DNA of 64,000 nt, taken from positions 1-64,000 of the forward strand of contig JAAVCX010000027.1 in NCBI GenBank assembly GCA_014802105.1, written 5' to 3'. The number at the start of each line of letters is the position of its first letter. Position 1 is the first letter of the stretch. The translations under genes were made by a program, and so were the position numbers. Below the pieces are notes generated by a model that saw only the letters and a list, made by a program, of their open reading frames with translations, was not told the DNA's origin and did not search any database. Source of the stretch: Bacteroides sp. (GTDB lineage Bacteria; Bacteroidota; Bacteroidia; Bacteroidales; Muribaculaceae). This document shows positions 6,513 through 25,448 of the stretch, one piece after another.

Positions 6513-8456
6513 TTATTGATTAATCATTTCGTTGACTTCGCGAGTCAATTCGGCTGCAAAGGTAGTAATTTTCATCGAACCTTTATCACCTTCGCCCTGT
6601 TTTCTTACAGAAATTTCGCCATTTTCTGCTTCTTTTTCACCAACGATGAGCATATAGGGTATTCTTTTGAGCTCATTGTCGCGAATTTTCTTGCCGATCT
6701 TCTCGTTGCGGTCGTCAACAAGGGTGCGCACATCGGCCTCGTTGAGCTGACGGGCCACCTCGTGAGCATAGTCGTTGAACTTCTCGGAGATGGGGAGCAC
6801 GACGGCCTGCTCGGGGGCGAGCCACAGGGGGAAACGGCCGGCGGTGTGCTCGAGGAGCACAGCCACAAATCGTTCCATCGAGCCGAAGGGAGCGCGGTGG
6901 ATCATCACGGGGCGATGCTTCTGGTTGTCGCTGCCGGTATACTCGAGCTGGAAGCGCTCGGGCAGGTTATAGTCTACCTGGATGGTTCCGAGCTGCCAGC
7001 GGCGTCCGAGGGCGTCTTTGACCATGAAGTCGAGCTTGGGGCCGTAGAAAGCTGCTTCGCCCAGCTCGGTGCGGGCTTTGAGACCCTTCTCGGCACATGC
7101 GTCGATGATGGCCTGCTCGGCAAGAGCCCAGTTTTCGTCTGAGCCGATATATTTTTCTTTGTGCTCGGGGTCGCGCAGAGAGATCTGAGCCTCAAAGTTG
7201 TCAAACTTCAGAGCCTTGAAGATGTAGAAGATAATGTCCATCACCTTGAGGAACTCACCCTTGATCTGGTCGGGGGCGCAATAGATGTGGGCATCATCCT
7301 GAGTGAAACCGCGCACACGGGTGAGGCCATGGAGCTCGCCGCTCTGCTCGTAGCGATAGACTGTGCCGAACTCGGCCAGACGCAGGGGGAGGTCGCGGTA
7401 AGAGCGGGGGAGAGCGCGGAAGATTTCACAGTGGTGAGGACAGTTCATGGGTTTGAGCAGATACTCCTCACCCTCTTCGGGGGTATGAATGGGCTGGAAT
7501 GAATCCTTGCCATATTTGGCATAGTGGCCCGAGGTTACATAGAGGTTTTTGTTACCGATATGGGGCGTGATGACCTGCTGGTAGCCATACTGTTTCTGTA
7601 TCTTACGGAGGAACTGCTCCAGGCGGTCGCGCAGAGCGGTGCCTTTGGGGAGCCAGAGGGGGAGACCGGCGCCAACGTTCTGAGAGAAAGCAAAGAGCTC
7701 CATCTCCTTGCCGAGTTTGCGGTGGTCACGCTTCTTGGCCTCCTCGAGCAGGGCAAGATACTCGTCAAGCATCTTTTTCTTGGGGAAAGTGATGCCATAG
7801 ACTCTGACGAGCTGCTTGCGCTTCTCGTCGCCACGCCAGAACGCACCGGCCAGCGAGGTGATCTTGACGGCTTTGATAGGAGCAGTGTCAGGAATGTGAG
7901 GGCCACGGCAGAGGTCGGTAAACGAGCCCTGTGTATAGGTGGTGATATTTCCGTCCTCAAGTTCAGAGATAAGCTCACATTTATACTCCTCGCCGCGGTC
8001 GCCGAAGAGCTTCAGAGCGTCGGCCTTTGAGATGTCGGCGCGTACGATCTGCTGCTTCTCACGAGCAAGCTCGAGCATCTTGTTCTCGATTTTGGCGAAA
8101 TCGGCGGCGGTGAGCTGATGCTCGCCCGGGTCGATGTCATAGTAGAAACCGTTGTCAATAGCGGGGCCGATGCCAAATTTCACGCCTGGATAGAGTTCCT
8201 GAAGAGCCTCGGCGAGAAGGTGGGCCGAAGAGTGCCAGAAGGCGTGCTTGCCCTCGGGATCCTCCCATTTGAACAGACACAGTGAGGCGTCCTCGGTGAT
8301 AGGACGGGTCAGATCCCACTCTTTATCGTTTACAGAAGCGGCCAGAACATCGCGGGCCAGTTGGGACGACAGGCTCTGAGCCACTTCCAGAGGGGTGACT
8401 CCGCTTTCAAACTGCTTGACGCTGCCGTCGGGAAAGGTAATGTTGATGGATGACAT
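6513..8456 (-). CDS. thrS: Threonine--tRNA ligase
   Basis: Class II synthetase of 647 residues, normal length. Domains in order: TGS (about 1-60, [20 protein letters not shown]), the editing/second additional domain ([15 protein letters not shown]), the catalytic core with motif 2 ([20 protein letters not shown]) and motif 3 ([18 protein letters not shown]), and the anticodon-binding domain. It charges tRNA-Thr and clears mischarged serine. It heads the thrS-infC-rpmI-rplT operon and is divergent from dnaG, with overlapping promoters between them. Confidence 0.99.
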
Positions 8457-11019: not shown

Positions 11020-11059
11020 CGCGTCTATATACTTTCGTGTACAAATGATTCTGTATAAT
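11020..11059 (+). repeat. Left terminal inverted repeat of the island
   Basis: Begins CGCGTCTATATACTTTCGTG. Its first 23 bases are identical to the reverse complement of 14427-14449, and the next 17 bases match with three differences. An AT-rich flank (11003-11019, starting TTTTAACATTT) resembles the flank just outside the right repeat (14450-14466, starting TTTTAATATTTG). This may be a degenerate target-site duplication or chance in low-complexity DNA. Confidence 0.9.
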
Positions 11060-11082
11060 GGATGGTTTACTCAGTTTATAAT

Positions 11083-11114
11083 AAAAGCGTGTCAGAGAAA
11101 TCCAGCACGCTTTT
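11083..11114 (-). terminator. Terminator of the island operon
   Basis: AAAAGCGTG (11083-11091) pairs with CACGCTTTT (11106-11114). Read on the minus strand the stem ends in a T-rich stretch, 37 bases after the stop of the last small gene of the operon. Confidence 0.75.
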
Positions 11115-11151
11115 TGTCGTCTTTATATAGTTGTCAGAGCCGTTCAATCCG

Positions 11152-11313
11152 TCATTTCTTTTTGCCAAACAATGCACCGAGAACCATTTTACCTACCTTT
11201 CTTTCCAATCCTTGCTTGGTCATGGGTATGCCAGTCTTCCGAGCTACTTTTTGCTTGACGGCGGTAATGCCGACGGCTCTTTTAAGGGAGAAACTTAGTC
11301 CAGGGATTTTCAT
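11152..11313 (-). CDS. Small basic protein of unknown function (island gene 5)
   Basis: ORF of 53 residues found by reading the minus strand. It starts MKIPGLSFSLKRAVGITAVK and ends in GKKK, with many Lys/Arg and a few hydrophobic stretches. Its ATG overlaps the TGA of the 38-codon ORF upstream (ATGA), which argues for translational coupling, and a terminator follows. I do not recognise a family. A nucleic-acid-binding or membrane-surface peptide would fit the composition, but that is inference. Confidence 0.55.
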   Translation of the reverse strand: MKIPGLSFSLKRAVGITAVKQKVARKTGIPMTKQGLERKVGKMVLGALFGKKK

Positions 11314-11426
11314 AAATCTTTGACGAGTTCATTAAGTCCGTAGAATATTAGGAATACAAGTCCCCAGAACAACATCTTGAAGAAGTTGCGCCAAAGGTAG
11401 AAGAGTATGAGCAGAAGATACTTCAC
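11310..11426 (-). CDS. Small hydrophobic peptide, or in-frame membrane tail of the preceding gene (island gene 4)
   Basis: ORF of 38 codons starting GTG directly after the TAA of the 291-residue gene and in the same reading frame. It begins (M/V)KYLLLILFYLWRNFFKML and continues hydrophobic to YGLNELVKDL, so it is one or two membrane segments. It may be a separate small membrane protein, coupled by the stop-start junction upstream and ATGA downstream. Alternatively it is a membrane tail added by TAA readthrough, or one cut off by a mutation. Confidence 0.45.
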   Translation of the reverse strand: MKYLLLILFYLWRNFFKMLFWGLVFLIFYGLNELVKDL

Positions 11427-12302
11427 TTAAAGCCCCTTGTCATTAAATGACTTAACCATCTTCTTGATTAGGGTGTCTATTTCGTTGGCTATACCTCCCA
11501 TGAACGCGGCTCTTGCGGTAGGATTTTTGAGTTTACCAAATCCCTCCGACTTCATTGTTTTGAAGTTGAGTTCGTTGCGAGGTGAGGCAGTTGCGCAAGC
11601 TCCCCAATTGGGATCATCACTCGGGCATACGTCTATTGACGGATCCACACCGGTCAGGGCGGCGGCAAGTGCAGGACCCGTGGCAGGGTCGTTGTTGTAT
11701 CGGATACCAAAGAAGTATCTTTCTTTCATTATGATGGAGAAAGTTACGTACTTCTTACGGTTCTTGGTACGATAGATGTTGAAGGTTACTCCGTAGCGTT
11801 TGTAACGGGTGCTTTTGGCGTAGTCTGCCACATCGGCTGTGAAATCTTTTTTCTCGATTTCATAGCCATTGGAGATGAGTTGGTCTTGTAACGCATCCCA
11901 AAAGTAGCACTGCAACTGCTCATCGGTCAGGTTATCAGTTTCCACCGTCTCACGTCCAGCGGCCGCGATAGTCATATCGCCTCTAACCAACTTTGTGTTG
12001 TCGGGATTGGCGACCTTTACGGTGATGCCAAAGATATCTTTCATCTTTGCCTCGAAGTTAGCTACTTGCAGATTACCTCTGCACGCCAGTTCACCACCCT
12101 TTACATTCTCTCCGCTACGGATAGATGCGAGGGTGGCATTTTCAGGGGCGAATTTCGCGCCTTTGTACACGCGCAGGGTCGCCCCGAATGCGTCTTTGAA
12201 TTGTTTTCGCAGACTGCTGACCGTCATACGGCCATTGATGTTGAATTCTGCCATAGTAAAATTGTCTTTTATGGAGTTGATAAGATTGTTTAGTACGCCC
12301 AT
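11427..12302 (-). CDS. Uncharacterised protein with duplicated N-terminal motif (island gene 3)
   Basis: Protein of 291 residues, cytoplasmic by sequence. The start at 12302 is used; an alternative ATG 16 codons later (MAEFNINGRMTV) is equally plausible. The N-terminal 110 residues seem to hold two copies of one motif: FKDAFGATLRVYKGAKFAPE and MKDIFGITVKVANPDNTKL, each followed by a Thr-Leu/Thr-Ile helix. The C-terminal 170 residues contain a strand-rich stretch (YGVTFNIYRTKNRKKYVTFS, then ERYFFGIRYNN) and a closing helix. I do not recognise the family. It lies between an 80-residue coiled-coil protein and the small membrane ORF in one operon with a putative nuclease. Confidence 0.8.
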   Translation of the reverse strand: MGVLNNLINSIKDNFTMAEFNINGRMTVSSLRKQFKDAFGATLRVYKGAKFAPENATLASIRSGENVKGGELACRGNLQVANFEAKMKDIFGITVKVANPDNTKLVRGDMTIAAAGRETVETDNLTDEQLQCYFWDALQDQLISNGYEIEKKDFTADVADYAKSTRYKRYGVTFNIYRTKNRKKYVTFSIIMKERYFFGIRYNNDPATGPALAAALTGVDPSIDVCPSDDPNWGACATASPRNELNFKTMKSEGFGKLKNPTARAAFMGGIANEIDTLIKKMVKSFNDKGL

Positions 12303-12323
12303 AATTTTCTATGTTTTGGTGGG

Positions 12324-12566
12324 TTATTTTATCCTTTTCAAAGATGCTTTCGCGTTCTCAATATCTCGCTTAAGGCCTTCTATTCTTCTATCATGGGCAG
12401 CAGCTCTGTCTATCTTTGATTTGCGATAGCTGGCTTTGCCTGATGGAGTGGAGGTTTTCTTTATTAAGTTCGCATAATAGGCATTATCTTTCTTCTTGGC
12501 TTCCCGTTCTTTGGCGATAGATGCCCTCAAGTCAATAATGCGTTTCTTGTAGTATTCCTTGCTCAT
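12324..12566 (-). CDS. Small coiled-coil protein (island gene 2)
   Basis: Protein of 80 residues, highly charged, predicted almost wholly helical (MSKEYYKKRIIDLRASIAKE and IEGLKRDIENAKASLKRIK). Long helices of this kind often mediate oligomerisation. Its ATG overlaps the stop of the endonuclease gene by four bases, so the two are probably translated together. No family recognised. A regulator or structural partner of the adjacent nuclease or of gene 3 is possible but unsupported. Confidence 0.7.
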   Translation of the reverse strand: MSKEYYKKRIIDLRASIAKEREAKKKDNAYYANLIKKTSTPSGKASYRKSKIDRAAAHDRRIEGLKRDIENAKASLKRIK

Positions 12567-13435
12567 GGTTGGATGTCAAGTTTGTAGGTGTCCGAAATGC
12601 GCTCCCAAACACACTTGTTTTCTTTGATTGATTTTTCTTTGTTCAGCCGAAACACACCGACAAAGCGGTAGGTATTCATACCAAGCCAATCGGTATATTT
12701 CAAGAAGGTTATTCGCTTAACACCTTTGTCAATATGCGACATCATGTGTCCGCGACGCTCCGGCTCCTCCTTTGGATATTCAGTAATGGTAAGTTTATCG
12801 GGAGACAGCTCATTGACCCACTTGGGGTGTACAGTGTTAGGCCACCAAACGAGTTCTTTGTTTTCCTTGTTGGGTACCCATACTGCCGATACTCTAAGAA
12901 AACCTTTATGCTTCGGTGCAGTACCAAATATAGTGGCAATATCATCTATCGTGTTGAGTGAAACATTATCGTCTACTCTTATGACTCCTTTTTGTCGGAT
13001 TTCTTCAGGAGTATCAGCACCTTTCCACGGAATAATTGGTGTATCTTTAATCCTTTTCCTTATAAATTCTATAACCTTATCTGTGCGTTGATTGAGTTCC
13101 GCGAGTGAGCAAGATACTGCGTTACCATTTACCACATTGTAGCAATCAATAACCTTAACCTCTACATATTCCGAAATCTCGGTATTCCTTACTTTATCGG
13201 CTTCTTGGTTTTTATAGTGGGCTGGCTCGTTAATTTCCACCACGAGGTTAAGTTGCGGCAGATATAAGTCGGCAAGAGCATACTTTCCCTCTTTTCGCAC
13301 CACATACTGCTGAAATACGAAATGAATATCTGTATTGTCAAGGGCATTCCAAATGCGGTGTATTACGTAGCTTTCCAATCTCTTATGTGAGATTTTGGTT
13401 AGCATACGGGTTATGTAATCTAACTTATAGTCCAT
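12563..13435 (-). CDS. Putative PvuRts1I/AbaSI-like modification-dependent endonuclease (island gene 1)
   Basis: Protein of 290 residues, the usual length of the PvuRts1I family. The N-terminal half looks like a Vsr/DUF559-type PD-(D/E)XK nuclease: a helical start (ITRMLTKISHKRLESYVIHR), then ALADLYLPQLNLVVEINEPA with candidate catalytic Asp56 and Glu67-x-Asn69, His73, and a following D..R pair (Asp80, Arg83). The C-terminal half is rich in Trp/Tyr (VWVPNKENKELVWWPNTVH), where this family has an SRA-like domain reading 5-hydroxymethyl- or glucosyl-hydroxymethylcytosine. If correct, the enzyme cuts phage DNA carrying modified cytosines. The family call rests on remembered motifs and length, not on a search. 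Confidence 0.65.
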   Translation of the reverse strand: MDYKLDYITRMLTKISHKRLESYVIHRIWNALDNTDIHFVFQQYVVRKEGKYALADLYLPQLNLVVEINEPAHYKNQEADKVRNTEISEYVEVKVIDCYNVVNGNAVSCSLAELNQRTDKVIEFIRKRIKDTPIIPWKGADTPEEIRQKGVIRVDDNVSLNTIDDIATIFGTAPKHKGFLRVSAVWVPNKENKELVWWPNTVHPKWVNELSPDKLTITEYPKEEPERRGHMMSHIDKGVKRITFLKYTDWLGMNTYRFVGVFRLNKEKSIKENKCVWERISDTYKLDIQP

Positions 13436-13643
13436 ATCTCTTGGGTTTATACCTACACACGAAAAAAAAGAGCGACAGCCAAAACTTTTTCCTCATTTGC
13501 TTTCGTGGGTTCTGGTAAACCTTTTGCCCAAATAAGTAAAAAGCAGTCTGCGCCCTTGGAGGGTACAAACCAACATTCGACTTATTATTCGGGGCCTTGA
13601 AATTTACCAGATTTACGAAAGCCAAATAACTTGTCTAAAAGTC

Positions 13644-13790
13644 ATGTTTGAAATATGTCTTGTTTCAGTCTTTCTGTTTCTTGCTTTGGTGGTTTTAAGT
13701 TTTACAATTCGCAAAATAAGCAAAAAATTCGGACATACGCAAGAGCATATCGCAGAACTGCCTAAAAATTTGGATGTTGCCACATTATAA
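13644..13790 (+). CDS. Possible small single-pass membrane protein in the island
   Basis: ORF of 48 residues found by reading. A hydrophobic segment (CLVSVFLFLALVVLSFTI) is followed by a basic stretch (RKISKKFGHTQEH) and a short tail. A strong hairpin begins at the base after its stop codon, which supports it being a transcribed unit. It opposes the minus-strand operon. No promoter of the TAnnTTTG type is obvious upstream. Function unknown. Confidence 0.4.
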   Translation: MFEICLVSVFLFLALVVLSFTIRKISKKFGHTQEHIAELPKNLDVATL

Positions 13791-13824
13791 AAATACCCAC
13801 CCGAATTGCTCCGAGTGGGTATTT
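13791..13824. terminator. Hairpin terminator inside the island
   Basis: AAATACCCAC (13791-13800) pairs perfectly with GTGGGTATTT (13815-13824), with a 14-base loop. A/T-rich on both sides, so it could work in either direction. Confidence 0.7.
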
Positions 13825-14210
13825 ATGCTATCGCACTCCTTACGATATTCTTTGTCTTGCTGTCGAGATATGAGTTGCTCCACAAAAGCAGGTTTCAAGC
13901 AGATTTGGTAATACCTTGGTCTACGGCTTGGAGTACGTAGGCAATCAATAAAGCGTTGCCGTCGGTTTTTAATTTACAAGGTAATTCTACCGCCCGAACA
14001 CGCGTTTGTTACATTTTGAGGGAAGAAAATTATGCTTTGATTAAAGTTTTTTCTATTTACATATTTCGTATACTTGTGAAAAATGGTGTCGTAAATGGTA
14101 AATGGACTCAAGTCGGTTCAATGAGATTGTCAGCCACTAACCAATTCATGACTTATGACTTGTAAAGAAATAATGTATTAGTGTTGATGCTGTACTAACA
14201 TACAACTAAT
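13825..14210. other. Island stretch without a convincing gene
   Basis: About 390 bases with no supported gene. The minus strand has an open frame from about 13991 to 13893 containing VELPCKLKTDGNALLIAYVL. It has no start codon, so it could be a relic of a coding sequence. A 69-codon plus-strand ORF (13956-14165) has unconvincing composition. I see no RNA gene or promoter here. Confidence 0.3.
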
Positions 14211-14242
14211 ATCCCACAGAGATTGCGAAACCTCTGTGGGAT
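14211..14242. terminator. Strong hairpin near the right end of the island
   Basis: ATCCCACAGAG (14211-14221) pairs perfectly with CTCTGTGGGAT (14232-14242), followed by T-rich sequence. It could be a terminator or attenuator ahead of the small ORF at 14292. No clear gene ends just before it. Confidence 0.5.
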
Positions 14243-14291
14243 TATTCATTTGTTGCTTACCAATACATATTTCAAACAAAACACTCTCATT

Positions 14292-14444
14292 ATGTATCAG
14301 ACACTCCAAGAAGCTCTCGAAGCAAATTCATTAGAGCATAGGTTAGAAATGCAGTTTAAGGCATCGCTTGACTTAACCGAAGAAAGTGGTGCGCCTGAGC
14401 AAACTAAGAATGATACAGAATTATTGGTACACGAAAGTATATAG
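14292..14444 (+). CDS. Doubtful short ORF running into the right inverted repeat
   Basis: ORF of 50 residues (start MYQTLQEALEANSLEHRLEM), acidic and helical. Its stop codon lies inside the right terminal repeat, so its last codons are repeat sequence. It may be a real small protein of the element, or chance. The preceding hairpin and lack of a recognisable promoter do not settle this. Confidence 0.25.
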   Translation: MYQTLQEALEANSLEHRLEMQFKASLDLTEESGAPEQTKNDTELLVHESI

Positions 14445-14449
14445 ACGCG
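14410..14449 (-). repeat. Right terminal inverted repeat of the island
   Basis: Inverted copy of 11020-11059, with the perfect 23-bp part at 14427-14449 (ending ATATAGACGCG). It ends 16 bases from the cinA stop codon. Confidence 0.9.
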
Positions 14450-23856: not shown

Positions 23857-25308
23857 ATGAAACGATTGATTAGTTTGGTCATAACTATGACTCTCACGGC
23901 TGGTGCCGCGATGGCCGATGCGCAGGCCGACTTTCAGCATTACATAAAGAATTATAATCAGGCTCTTTCGTCACACAGCTACGAGACCGCTTCCCATGCC
24001 GCCGCCTCGGCCGCCAAGGTTTGTGGCGAGGCCAAGAACTACGACGGTGCTTTCAAGCTCCTGTCCTCCTTTGACAACGTCATGGCTGAGCGAGGGGTCA
24101 GGGCCGACTCTCTGCCGACTCCTTATTATTACTCTGCCCGTGCCCGTTATGAACTGTATCGCAAGATGGGCAACGCCGCTCAGGCCGAAGCGTGGCTCAA
24201 GAAGATGGGCGGCTATGCGCGCGCTACCGACTCTCGTCAGGTTGCCGATGATATGCTTGTGACTGAGGCTCAGTTCTACTATGCTCAGGGTCGAGACCAA
24301 CTCGGCGACCAGTGCATAGCCCGACTTATCAAGCACTATGAGAATGAGAACGATTACAGCTCGGCCGACACTGCCTATCAGCGGCTCATCGAGAAGGCCG
24401 TCAGCGCCAACGATGCGCGTTTCGTAGAGCAGACTTTCGAGAACTATATGAAGTGGAGCGACTCTATCGAAGCTATCACCCAGAACACAGAGCTATCGCG
24501 CGTTAAGGCCGAAGTGGCTAGCGAGCAGGCTGAGGTGGCGCGCAAACAGGGCACAATCAATTCACGTACTTCGGTGATGATTGTCTTCATCACTCTCTTC
24601 ATAGCCTCGCTTGCCGCCATCGGTGTCTGTATCGTCTTCTACCAGCGTGTGAAAGGTAAGTTACACCTGAGCCGTCTGATGATACGCAAAGCTGAGGCTC
24701 AGAGCGCTGCCAAGAGTGCCATGCTTCAGAACCTGTCTTCAACTATGAACCCGGCTCTCGACCAGCTTGATCCTGAAAATCCTGCCGTGCAGTCGCTCAA
24801 GGGATATGTCAGAAAGGTCGAGGAACTCTCTGAAGTCGACTCGGCTCCCGAGACAGCCGGTGAGCCTAAAGATCAGGTCAATATCGAGCACCTCTGTGCT
24901 TCGCTGGCCGATCAGGTGCGTCCTCAGCTCAAGCGTGGAGTGACTCTGAGTGTCGACGGGGCCCGTGGATCGGCACCGATTGATGCCGATGAGGTCAGCA
25001 AGATCGTGGGACATCTGCTCGAAAACGCCGCCAAGTATACCTCGGAAGGTGGACGTATCACTCTGAGTTTCCGTAAACGTGGCCCGGGCAGCTACCAGTT
25101 TGTAGTGACTGACAATGGTGTCGGTATCCCTGCCGATCAGCGCGATAAGATATTCGAACCCTTTGCTCAGGCTGGTGACATCACTACCGACGGTGATCGT
25201 CTCGGACTCCCCATCTGTGCGCTGCGGGCCAAGAAGATGGGTGGCACGCTCACTCTCGATCCGGCCGTGACACGCGGAGCCTCTTTCATACTCTCCCTCA
25301 AGTCCTGA
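23857..25308 (+). CDS. Membrane sensor-kinase-like protein lacking the phospho-acceptor histidine
   Basis: Protein of 483 residues: signal peptide (1-21), helical TPR-like periplasmic region (about 25-230), one membrane segment (about 238-262), a linker helix, and a GHKL ATPase domain. The N box (HLLENAAKYT), G1 box (DNGVGIP), F box (IFEPFAQ) and G2-like segment (RLGLPICALRAKKMGG) are all present. At the position of the H box, normally NMSHEIRTPL, the sequence reads NLSSTMNPAL (292-301), so Ser295 replaces the histidine. It may signal by nucleotide-driven shape change, act in a heterodimer, or be defunct. No response regulator is adjacent. Confidence 0.82.
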   Translation: MKRLISLVITMTLTAGAAMADAQADFQHYIKNYNQALSSHSYETASHAAASAAKVCGEAKNYDGAFKLLSSFDNVMAERGVRADSLPTPYYYSARARYELYRKMGNAAQAEAWLKKMGGYARATDSRQVADDMLVTEAQFYYAQGRDQLGDQCIARLIKHYENENDYSSADTAYQRLIEKAVSANDARFVEQTFENYMKWSDSIEAITQNTELSRVKAEVASEQAEVARKQGTINSRTSVMIVFITLFIASLAAIGVCIVFYQRVKGKLHLSRLMIRKAEAQSAAKSAMLQNLSSTMNPALDQLDPENPAVQSLKGYVRKVEELSEVDSAPETAGEPKDQVNIEHLCASLADQVRPQLKRGVTLSVDGARGSAPIDADEVSKIVGHLLENAAKYTSEGGRITLSFRKRGPGSYQFVVTDNGVGIPADQRDKIFEPFAQAGDITTDGDRLGLPICALRAKKMGGTLTLDPAVTRGASFILSLKS

Positions 25309-25315
25309 CTTCTTA

Positions 25316-25448
25316 GAAAAGCTATATCAACAATAAGCGTCCTCAATACACAAGAGACATAAGGATCTCGTCGGAAAATCCTTATGTCTCTTGTGTATTG
25401 AGGACTGTGTAATGTCGCTACTGCGAGCTAATTCTTATATAGCTTTTC
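25316..25448. repeat. Nested long palindrome between convergent genes
   Basis: A perfect 28-bp stem (25339-25366 with 25378-25405, 11-base loop) is enclosed by a second perfect 12-bp inverted repeat (GAAAAGCTATAT at 25316-25327, ATATAGCTTTTC at 25437-25448). It lies between the ends of the sensor-like gene and gdhA. It could be a bidirectional terminator, but it is unusually long and has no T run, so a MITE-like repeat is an alternative. Confidence 0.85.

Follow-up and report, generated by a model that had tools for sequence, protein, structure and literature searches.

The stretch of DNA analysed here (the window) comprises 64,000 nucleotides (nt) of contig JAAVCX010000027.1 from a Bacteroides sp. 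of the Muribaculaceae (assembly GCA_014802105.1). It contains a segment of 3,430 base pairs (bp) with a GC content of 0.417, against 0.535 for the window, which lies between the end of dnaG (10815) and the stop codon of cinA (14466), is bounded by terminal inverted repeats, and encodes a predicted endonuclease with four small partner genes behind a structured leader RNA (Table 1). The arms of the repeat are 55 nt each and 85% complementary; over the outer 41 bases they match at 37 positions, including all of the outermost 23. Pairs of inverted 18-mers separated by less than 5 kb are found only twice in the window, at the element ends and in a short hairpin near 25339, and in none of five first-order Markov controls. 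A first-pass annotation of this DNA had described the inverted repeat and the AT-rich block, and both descriptions hold. Its statement that the block disrupts nothing is correct insofar as no gene is interrupted between dnaG and cinA, but these two genes are not ancestral neighbours.

Table 1. Features of the element and their positions in the window
Feature	Position	Strand	Remarks
Left terminal inverted repeat	11020..11074	+	begins CGCGTCTATATACTTTC; siblings have the same ends
53-residue basic protein	11152..11313	-	last gene of the operon
38-residue hydrophobic peptide	11310..11426	-	GTG start; transmembrane by eye; overlaps next gene
291-residue partner protein	11427..12302	-	N-terminal ~117 residues recur elsewhere; C-terminal PDC-S26 match
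80-residue basic protein	12324..12566	-	coiled-coil-like by eye; conserved beside endonuclease
290-residue PvuRts1I/AbaSI-type modification-dependent endonuclease	12563..13435	-	Pfam, PADLOC and PDB matches
Structured leader RNA	13464..13661	-	model R1, 219 bits (seed alignment includes this copy); upstream of endonuclease gene
IS1595-type transposase relic	13821..13958	-	matches residues 282-327 of 331-residue sibling protein
AACCGA at transposase deletion junction	13962..13967	-	compared with L007
50-residue small open reading frame	14292..14444	+	stop inside right terminal repeat
Right terminal inverted repeat	14395..14449	-	siblings have the same ends

The operon of five genes on the minus strand, for proteins of 290, 80, 291, 38 and 53 residues, is as the first-pass annotation had it, and the modified-cytosine endonuclease proposed there for the first gene is indeed a member of the PvuRts1I/AbaSI family. 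The 290-residue protein combines an N-terminal PvuRts1I-like nuclease domain (Pfam PvuRts1I-like_N, PF21598, 1.8e-31) with a C-terminal SRA domain (PF18491, 8e-37), as in the PvuRts1I/AbaSI endonucleases; it matches positions 1-287 of 294 of the PADLOC model mREase_II for methyl-directed enzymes (1.2e-77), as well as the PDB sequences of AbaSI (4.5e-28) and PvuRts1I. Residues D56, E67, E70 and H73 are invariant in all 14 aligned endonucleases, which makes them candidate nuclease-site residues as far as a sequence alignment can indicate. The best 10 of 49 plasmid copies are 31-35% identical to this protein. We take the family to cut DNA containing 5-hydroxymethylcytosine or its glucosylated form, and the activity predicted for the 290-residue enzyme is based on this assumption. 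The SRA-like domain would recognise 5-hydroxymethyl- or glucosylated cytosine and the nuclease domain would cut nearby, leading to restriction of phages that modify their cytosine; the enzyme thus probably destroys phage DNA with modified cytosine.

The gene order endonuclease-80-291-53 is retained in 11 of 19 relatives, and each of the 12 sequences compared, among them the window, has a readable hydrophobic peptide like that of 38 residues at the corresponding position. The earlier remark that this combination of genes matches no named system remains valid for the partner genes, which gave no useful match in Pfam, NCBIfam, PADLOC or PHROGs except for the C-terminal part of the 291-residue protein, similar to the PADLOC candidate PDC-S26 (1.5e-12); it does not apply to the endonuclease. 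The 291-residue protein, for which a low-confidence structural model was obtained (mean predicted local distance difference test score, pLDDT, 60.4), had no fold match in the PDB at E<=0.001. Weak UBL-domain hits for this fold were not used, and a ubiquitin hit of the 53-residue protein (0.039) was below its cut-off and was dropped. The four partner proteins may modulate or contain the endonuclease.

Relatives of the partner proteins were also found in five operon-like loci without the endonuclease (L062-L065 and L068, in genomes G100, G015, G050, G032 and G010, respectively), each of which pairs at least two of three kinds: the N-terminal ~117 residues of the 291-residue protein, and relatives of the 53- and 80-residue proteins. 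Their neighbours, as judged by eye, include voltage-gated-channel-like, KAP-type ATPase, ~65-residue repeat-domain and OmpA-like proteins. These loci possibly represent an undescribed conserved system of the Bacteroidales.

The terminal repeats recur outside the window. A search for the repeat, as had been recommended, identified the end pattern in 7 of 297 genomes of the family, the source genome counted (<=2 mismatches); the exact end pattern had no match in viral contigs. Among 19 loci encoding relatives of the endonuclease, searched with up to 5 mismatches of 24 specified bases, both ends were present in five (L003, L006, L007, L009 and L016), one end in three, and none in 11; of these loci, L005, L011, L013 and L017 are truncated nearby at contig ends. 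The length of the siblings that have both ends is 5.2-6.4 kb, and 4.9 kb for the one in Paraprevotella. Inside these siblings a transposase match was found, full-length in L006, L007, L009 and L055 and covering residues 1-318 in L016. The transposases of L007 and L009 belong to the IS1595 family, being DDE enzymes with a zinc ribbon, with matches above the cut-offs to PF12762 (1.1e-35 and 1.8e-33) and PF12760 (1.9e-13 and 2.3e-13). Four other loci (L004, L008, L014 and L015) hold the endonuclease, the leader and the genes for the 291- and 53-residue proteins, with no ends or transposase detected.

Both boundaries could be placed for eight elements (the window copy, L003, L006, L007, L009, L016, L055 and L220), and four of these are flanked by exact 8-bp target duplications: TAAATGAA in L006, TCCTTATA in L055 (from the same genus as the window), TTATATTT in L016 and ATTATTGT in L220. 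The L016 element, in Paraprevotella xylaniphila, splits a type ISP restriction-modification gene. Aligned to the Type_ISP_C profile, the left part of this gene runs up to position 91 and the right part starts from 90. The two parts correspond to neighbouring stretches of a single, uninterrupted gene on the Parabacteroides distasonis plasmid NZ_OY725823.1, at 83301-87356 (53% identity) and 87351-88286 (52%). The small overlap of these two stretches fits an 8-bp duplication. Together with the duplications, this comparison of an occupied and an empty gene shows, at the level of sequence, that the siblings are mobile. The proposal of a non-autonomous defence transposon in the first-pass annotation is thus well supported, by ends that recur, siblings that encode a transposase, exact target duplications, and the comparison of an occupied with an empty gene.

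The same annotation had offered an invertible cassette as an alternative. In such a cassette the DNA between the repeats would be inverted, by homologous recombination or by a site-specific recombinase, and expression would be switched in this way. A long inverted repeat enclosing a block of genes would fit this, and natural inversions between the terminal repeats of insertion sequences are reported (PMC3004938). We nevertheless consider this alternative scarcely credible, since the segment has the ends of a DDE transposon, no recombinase family was detected in Pfam scans of 17 open reading frames (ORFs; seven from the window copy and ten from siblings), and siblings lie at other sites, four of them with 8-bp duplications. 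In addition, the operon has its own leader, so that inversion would not be an obvious switch.

Related ends also enclose different cargo. The element L220, in genome G081 from another family of the order, measures 3,691 bp and has related ends (CACACTTATATACTTTAATGTACCAA) and a transposase 47% and 51% identical to that of L007 over its two parts. Its cargo consists of a 72-residue protein and a 271-residue protein of the UDG superfamily (2.9e-8), and its leader RNA match is divergent (55.8 bits). Of 295 genomes sampled across the order, two, the source genome and G081, have the exact end core TATATACTTTNNTGTACCAA, and this subgroup therefore looks rare. A third end of the L220 type, at a contig edge (G081:C16:113-132), suggests a second copy of that element in the same genome.

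Two siblings show additional features. L003 (5083-11219) is composite: besides its two outer ends it has a third one inside, near 7045, which is degraded (29 of 42 bases matching). It also holds a 401-residue ORF, a weak GIY-YIG match (below the cut-off) and a truncated transposase. L055 (2346-8765) has two extra ORFs of 154 and 169 residues at its left end, the latter like an S24-type peptidase by eye, and an endonuclease that is 45% identical and lacks the 80-, 291- and 53-residue partners. Furthermore, short proteins with an N-terminus like TLQEALEANSLEHKLEMQI lie near element ends in the window (14292-14444), in L003 (7050-7202 and 11062-11211), and in L006, L055 and L057; about the first 27 residues are common to them, the remainder varies, and third codon positions are the most variable. 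The excess of third-position changes among four copies suggests that the 50-residue ORF of the window is, or was, coding.

The absence of a transposase, stated in the first-pass annotation, holds for the window copy in that no complete gene is present; a C-terminal relic remains, 61% identical to the L007 protein over residues 282-327 only. In L007 the hexamer AACCGA occurs at 6583 and 7431, 848 bp apart, flanking the part that is missing from the window copy, which suggests that the latter lost its transposase by deletion between short direct repeats. Besides the relic, no other IS1595-type transposase was found in the source genome, the assembly of which is 77% complete, and the window copy would move only if a related transposase acts in trans. 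Locus L058 from the same genus (G006:C105) contains the leader, a divergent endonuclease (44%) and, of the transposase, likewise only a relic (residues 299-330), a hint that the transposase has been lost repeatedly.

In six of 26 other genomes of the genus, the best matches of dnaG and cinA are located on one contig, at a distance of 33-895 kb, and in the remaining genomes the two genes fall on separate contigs. In G008 and G012, cinA is next to the homologue of window positions 23857-25308. By this comparison of gene orders the window element lies at a breakpoint, which goes with the lack of a target duplication (flanks TTATTTTT and TTTTAATA, 4 of 8 positions alike). This may be due to a rearrangement by way of the element, to a duplication that decayed at a later time, or to a misjoin; a simple inversion joining cinA and dnaG was rejected, as the gene order of G012 differs by more than one event. 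A binned genome might also have lost the transposase, or have had two sites joined at the element, during assembly. The fragmentation into 39 contigs and the incompleteness of the assembly, the missing duplication and the distance between dnaG and cinA in related genomes would all agree with such an artefact, which is nonetheless improbable: a relic of the transposase, not a clean gap, remains, L058 in another genome of the genus likewise has leader, endonuclease and no more than a transposase relic, and the element is internal to a 68.7-kb contig.

The leader RNA was an unexpected find, outside the observations of the first-pass annotation. It is about 200 nt long, with a terminal U-run 28 nt before the ATG of the endonuclease gene. 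The DNA just 5' of the endonuclease is 82-94% conserved in the longer matches, even where the downstream gene is different or only 44-45% identical, and the window leader folds better than 199 of 200 shuffled sequences (z -3.84). A seed alignment (A1) of 26 near-identical copies was compiled, leaving out L158, L162 and L165 (poor fit), copies cut by contig ends, and short matches. Its structure of 42 pairs was written by hand to replace that of RNAalifold, in which the P2 helices were present and P1, P3 and most of the distal helix were absent. With this structure 91.4% of cells in the seed set are paired, 12 pairs have changed on both sides, and the covariation is 0.212, compared to 0.111 for shuffled and at most 0.082 for slid alignments. 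A column-by-column listing of covariation was too noisy and remained unused.

Model R1 had matches in 24 of 61 relatives, in 26 of 119 genomes sampled from the order and in 5 of 148 sampled from the phylum; these samples overlap, each includes the source genome, and the E-values of R1 are rough owing to a short calibration. The other four leader-positive genomes of the phylum sample belong to the same class as the source. In 32 order-level matches outside model building, from 29 of 30 loci, 91.9% of cells are paired, 36 of the 42 pairs show double changes, and the covariation reaches 0.594, compared to 0.171 shuffled and at most 0.098 slid. Locus L218 was omitted from this set, as it represents the same copies as L203, and one match (L175) is the reverse strand of another. 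The source genome has a second, weaker leader match (L241, G000:C24:11897-12126, 48 bits) upstream of a 322-residue ORF with a signal-peptide-like start.

No Rfam family overlapped the leader, either in the window region at E<=5 or in the window copy and seven other loci at E<=0.5. Hits of microRNA type near 14197-14254 correspond to a simple hairpin outside the leader and are far below gathering scores, while DUF805b RNA hits lie beside the leader RNA and not within it. A literature search, which did not cover supplements, gave no description of this transposon or this RNA, and nothing matching either was present in the available parts of PMC2864571, PMC9723704 and PMC7366714; the long candidate lists belonging to PMC8040213 may contain the RNA. 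On its own, the leader RNA might constitute a new class, subject to a comparison with the motif lists in supplements.

The position of the leader relative to genes was analysed in all 54 copies delivered as loci by the searches of relatives and of the order, counting ORFs of at least 70 residues with an ATG start; these sets supersede earlier partial counts (22 of 30 order-level loci; 34 copies), which pointed in the same direction. An ORF on the same strand starts 26-239 nt (median 55) downstream of the leader in 51 of the 54 copies, compared to 15 of 54 on the opposite strand; 500 trials with random places in the same loci averaged 30.0 and did not exceed 39. Two of the three copies without a downstream ORF (L191 and L208) are near contig ends. 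First or second downstream proteins, 18 in total, were scanned with Pfam, and nine of these also with PADLOC. Matches were obtained to PDC-M15A and M15B (L229), to a KAP NTPase also near PifA and PDC-S20 (L193), to a dynamin-like protein near LeoA (L207), to the UDG superfamily (L220, and L223 just below the cut-off), and to SusD-like (L197), GHL10 (L061), Fib_succ_major (L175) and radical SAM (L209) families; the remaining scanned proteins had no family match. The genes downstream of the leader are thus diverse and only partly defence-like.

This distribution bears on two other explanations of the leader. It might be an independent small RNA, or a mobile repeat located in front of genes by chance, as its terminal U-run, the unrelated genes that it precedes and the two tandem copies in L203 would allow. 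The strong preference for a closely following ORF on the same strand argues otherwise, and the tandem leaders of L203 precede two similar genes, so that gene and leader look duplicated together; we therefore judge this explanation rather unlikely. Alternatively, the region could be the N-terminal coding part of the endonuclease, in agreement with the continuous open frame in L006, L055 and L058. This is very improbable, as the frame is broken in the window and in L007, the same RNA precedes unrelated proteins, and double changes preserve the helices.

The 3' end of the leader looks like a terminator/antiterminator switch. The 3' strand of the distal helix has its complement directly before the terminal U-run, and the two pairings, that of the distal helix and that of the terminator, are mutually exclusive, as in an attenuator. 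In the order-level set the alternative pairing has a mean energy of -12.7 kcal/mol with a leader's own partner strand, compared to -9.9 with swapped partners (lowest of 500 swaps, -11.2) and -6.9 with shuffled letters, so that the terminator/antiterminator alternative is supported by covariation in this set. The test was performed on 31 rows, after dropping the reverse-strand match of L175, with three rows having too short a strand scored as zero; a subset of 24 rows had pointed in the same direction.

Overall, we hold it to be highly probable that the segment is a non-autonomous derivative of an IS1595-family transposon carrying a PvuRts1I/AbaSI-type operon behind an attenuator-like leader. 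A number of observations nevertheless weigh against this interpretation, or against parts of it. Besides the window copy, which lacks a target duplication, no exact 8-bp duplication flanks the delimited elements L003, L007 and L009. Several sibling transposases are damaged: in L003 only residues 80-147 remain, that of L006 has one in-frame stop, and that of L220 is split over two frames. AACCGA was present on both sides of the transposase part in L007 only, one of four relatives checked. As to the leader, the open frame continuous with the endonuclease in three loci would also fit a longer protein, and several copies precede genes of a non-defence type (SusD-like, GHL10). The order-level alignment was fitted to the model structure, which favours paired cells, and for this reason double changes are weighed above the paired percentage. 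Finally, the swap test was not significant in seed set A1 (own partners -12.62, swapped mean -12.07, lowest of 200 swaps -12.9).

For expression of the operon the following course can be envisaged. Transcription would run through the ~200-nt leader, which on the basis of its structure would fold into a multi-part stem. The strand of the distal helix could alternatively pair with the strand before the U-run, forming a terminator, and a signal would decide whether transcription ends there or continues into the operon. We tentatively propose, as an idea with somewhat less than even chances, that the leader belongs to an undescribed class of attenuators, riboswitch-like or read by a protein, which is centred on the Bacteroidales and gates mobile accessory genes, including several for defence. 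IS1595-type transposons would carry it as an on/off control of interchangeable cargo, such as the PvuRts1I operon and the UDG-superfamily gene of L220, and a newly landed nuclease would not be expressed before termination is relieved by a signal from the cell or from a phage.

Passenger genes located between insertion-sequence ends without a transposase constitute a mobile insertion cassette. The window copy resembles such a cassette in having insertion-sequence ends, cargo and no functional transposase, and differs from it by its recognisable transposase relic. Tn7-like transposons, which reportedly bring defence cargo, are comparable as carriers of defence genes; the present element is much smaller, and their transposase family is presumably different from the IS1595 type found here. 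The 290-residue protein has both domains of the PvuRts1I/AbaSI type IV restriction endonucleases over its full length; unlike these, it is embedded in a five-gene operon with four partners, and its activity is a predicted one. The leader shares with transcription attenuators and riboswitch-type leaders a multi-helix 5' structure, a U-run shortly before the start codon and mutually exclusive pairing, whereas the copies tested have no Rfam match and the downstream genes are very diverse. The closest parallel is with the IS1595-family insertion sequences with passenger genes (tIS; MTnSag1/tISSag10 and tISCpe8), for which terminal repeats and a target duplication are described in PMC5704250; for the IS1016 group within IS1595, PMC10045372 gives a duplication of 8 bp, and the cargo of tISCpe8 is lincomycin resistance, by the title of a reference in PMC5704250. 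An IS1595 transposase (in the siblings), terminal inverted repeats, target duplication and cargo between the ends are common to both. They differ in their cargo, since the present element carries an operon for modified-cytosine restriction behind an RNA leader and not lincomycin resistance, and in that the window copy has no transposase. While IS1595 transposons with passenger genes are already known, it is the combination of a restriction operon with a shared RNA leader that sets this one apart.

The analysis points to a small and simple family of transposons that would move modified-cytosine restriction among gut Bacteroidales, and transposition can be studied in the sibling of Paraprevotella xylaniphila YIT 11841, which is a named isolate. 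The shared leader provides a testable handle on how acquired restriction genes, which could harm their new host, are silenced and by which signal they could be activated. If the leader senses something linked to infection, phage attack would be tied directly to the transcription of defence genes in the Bacteroidales.

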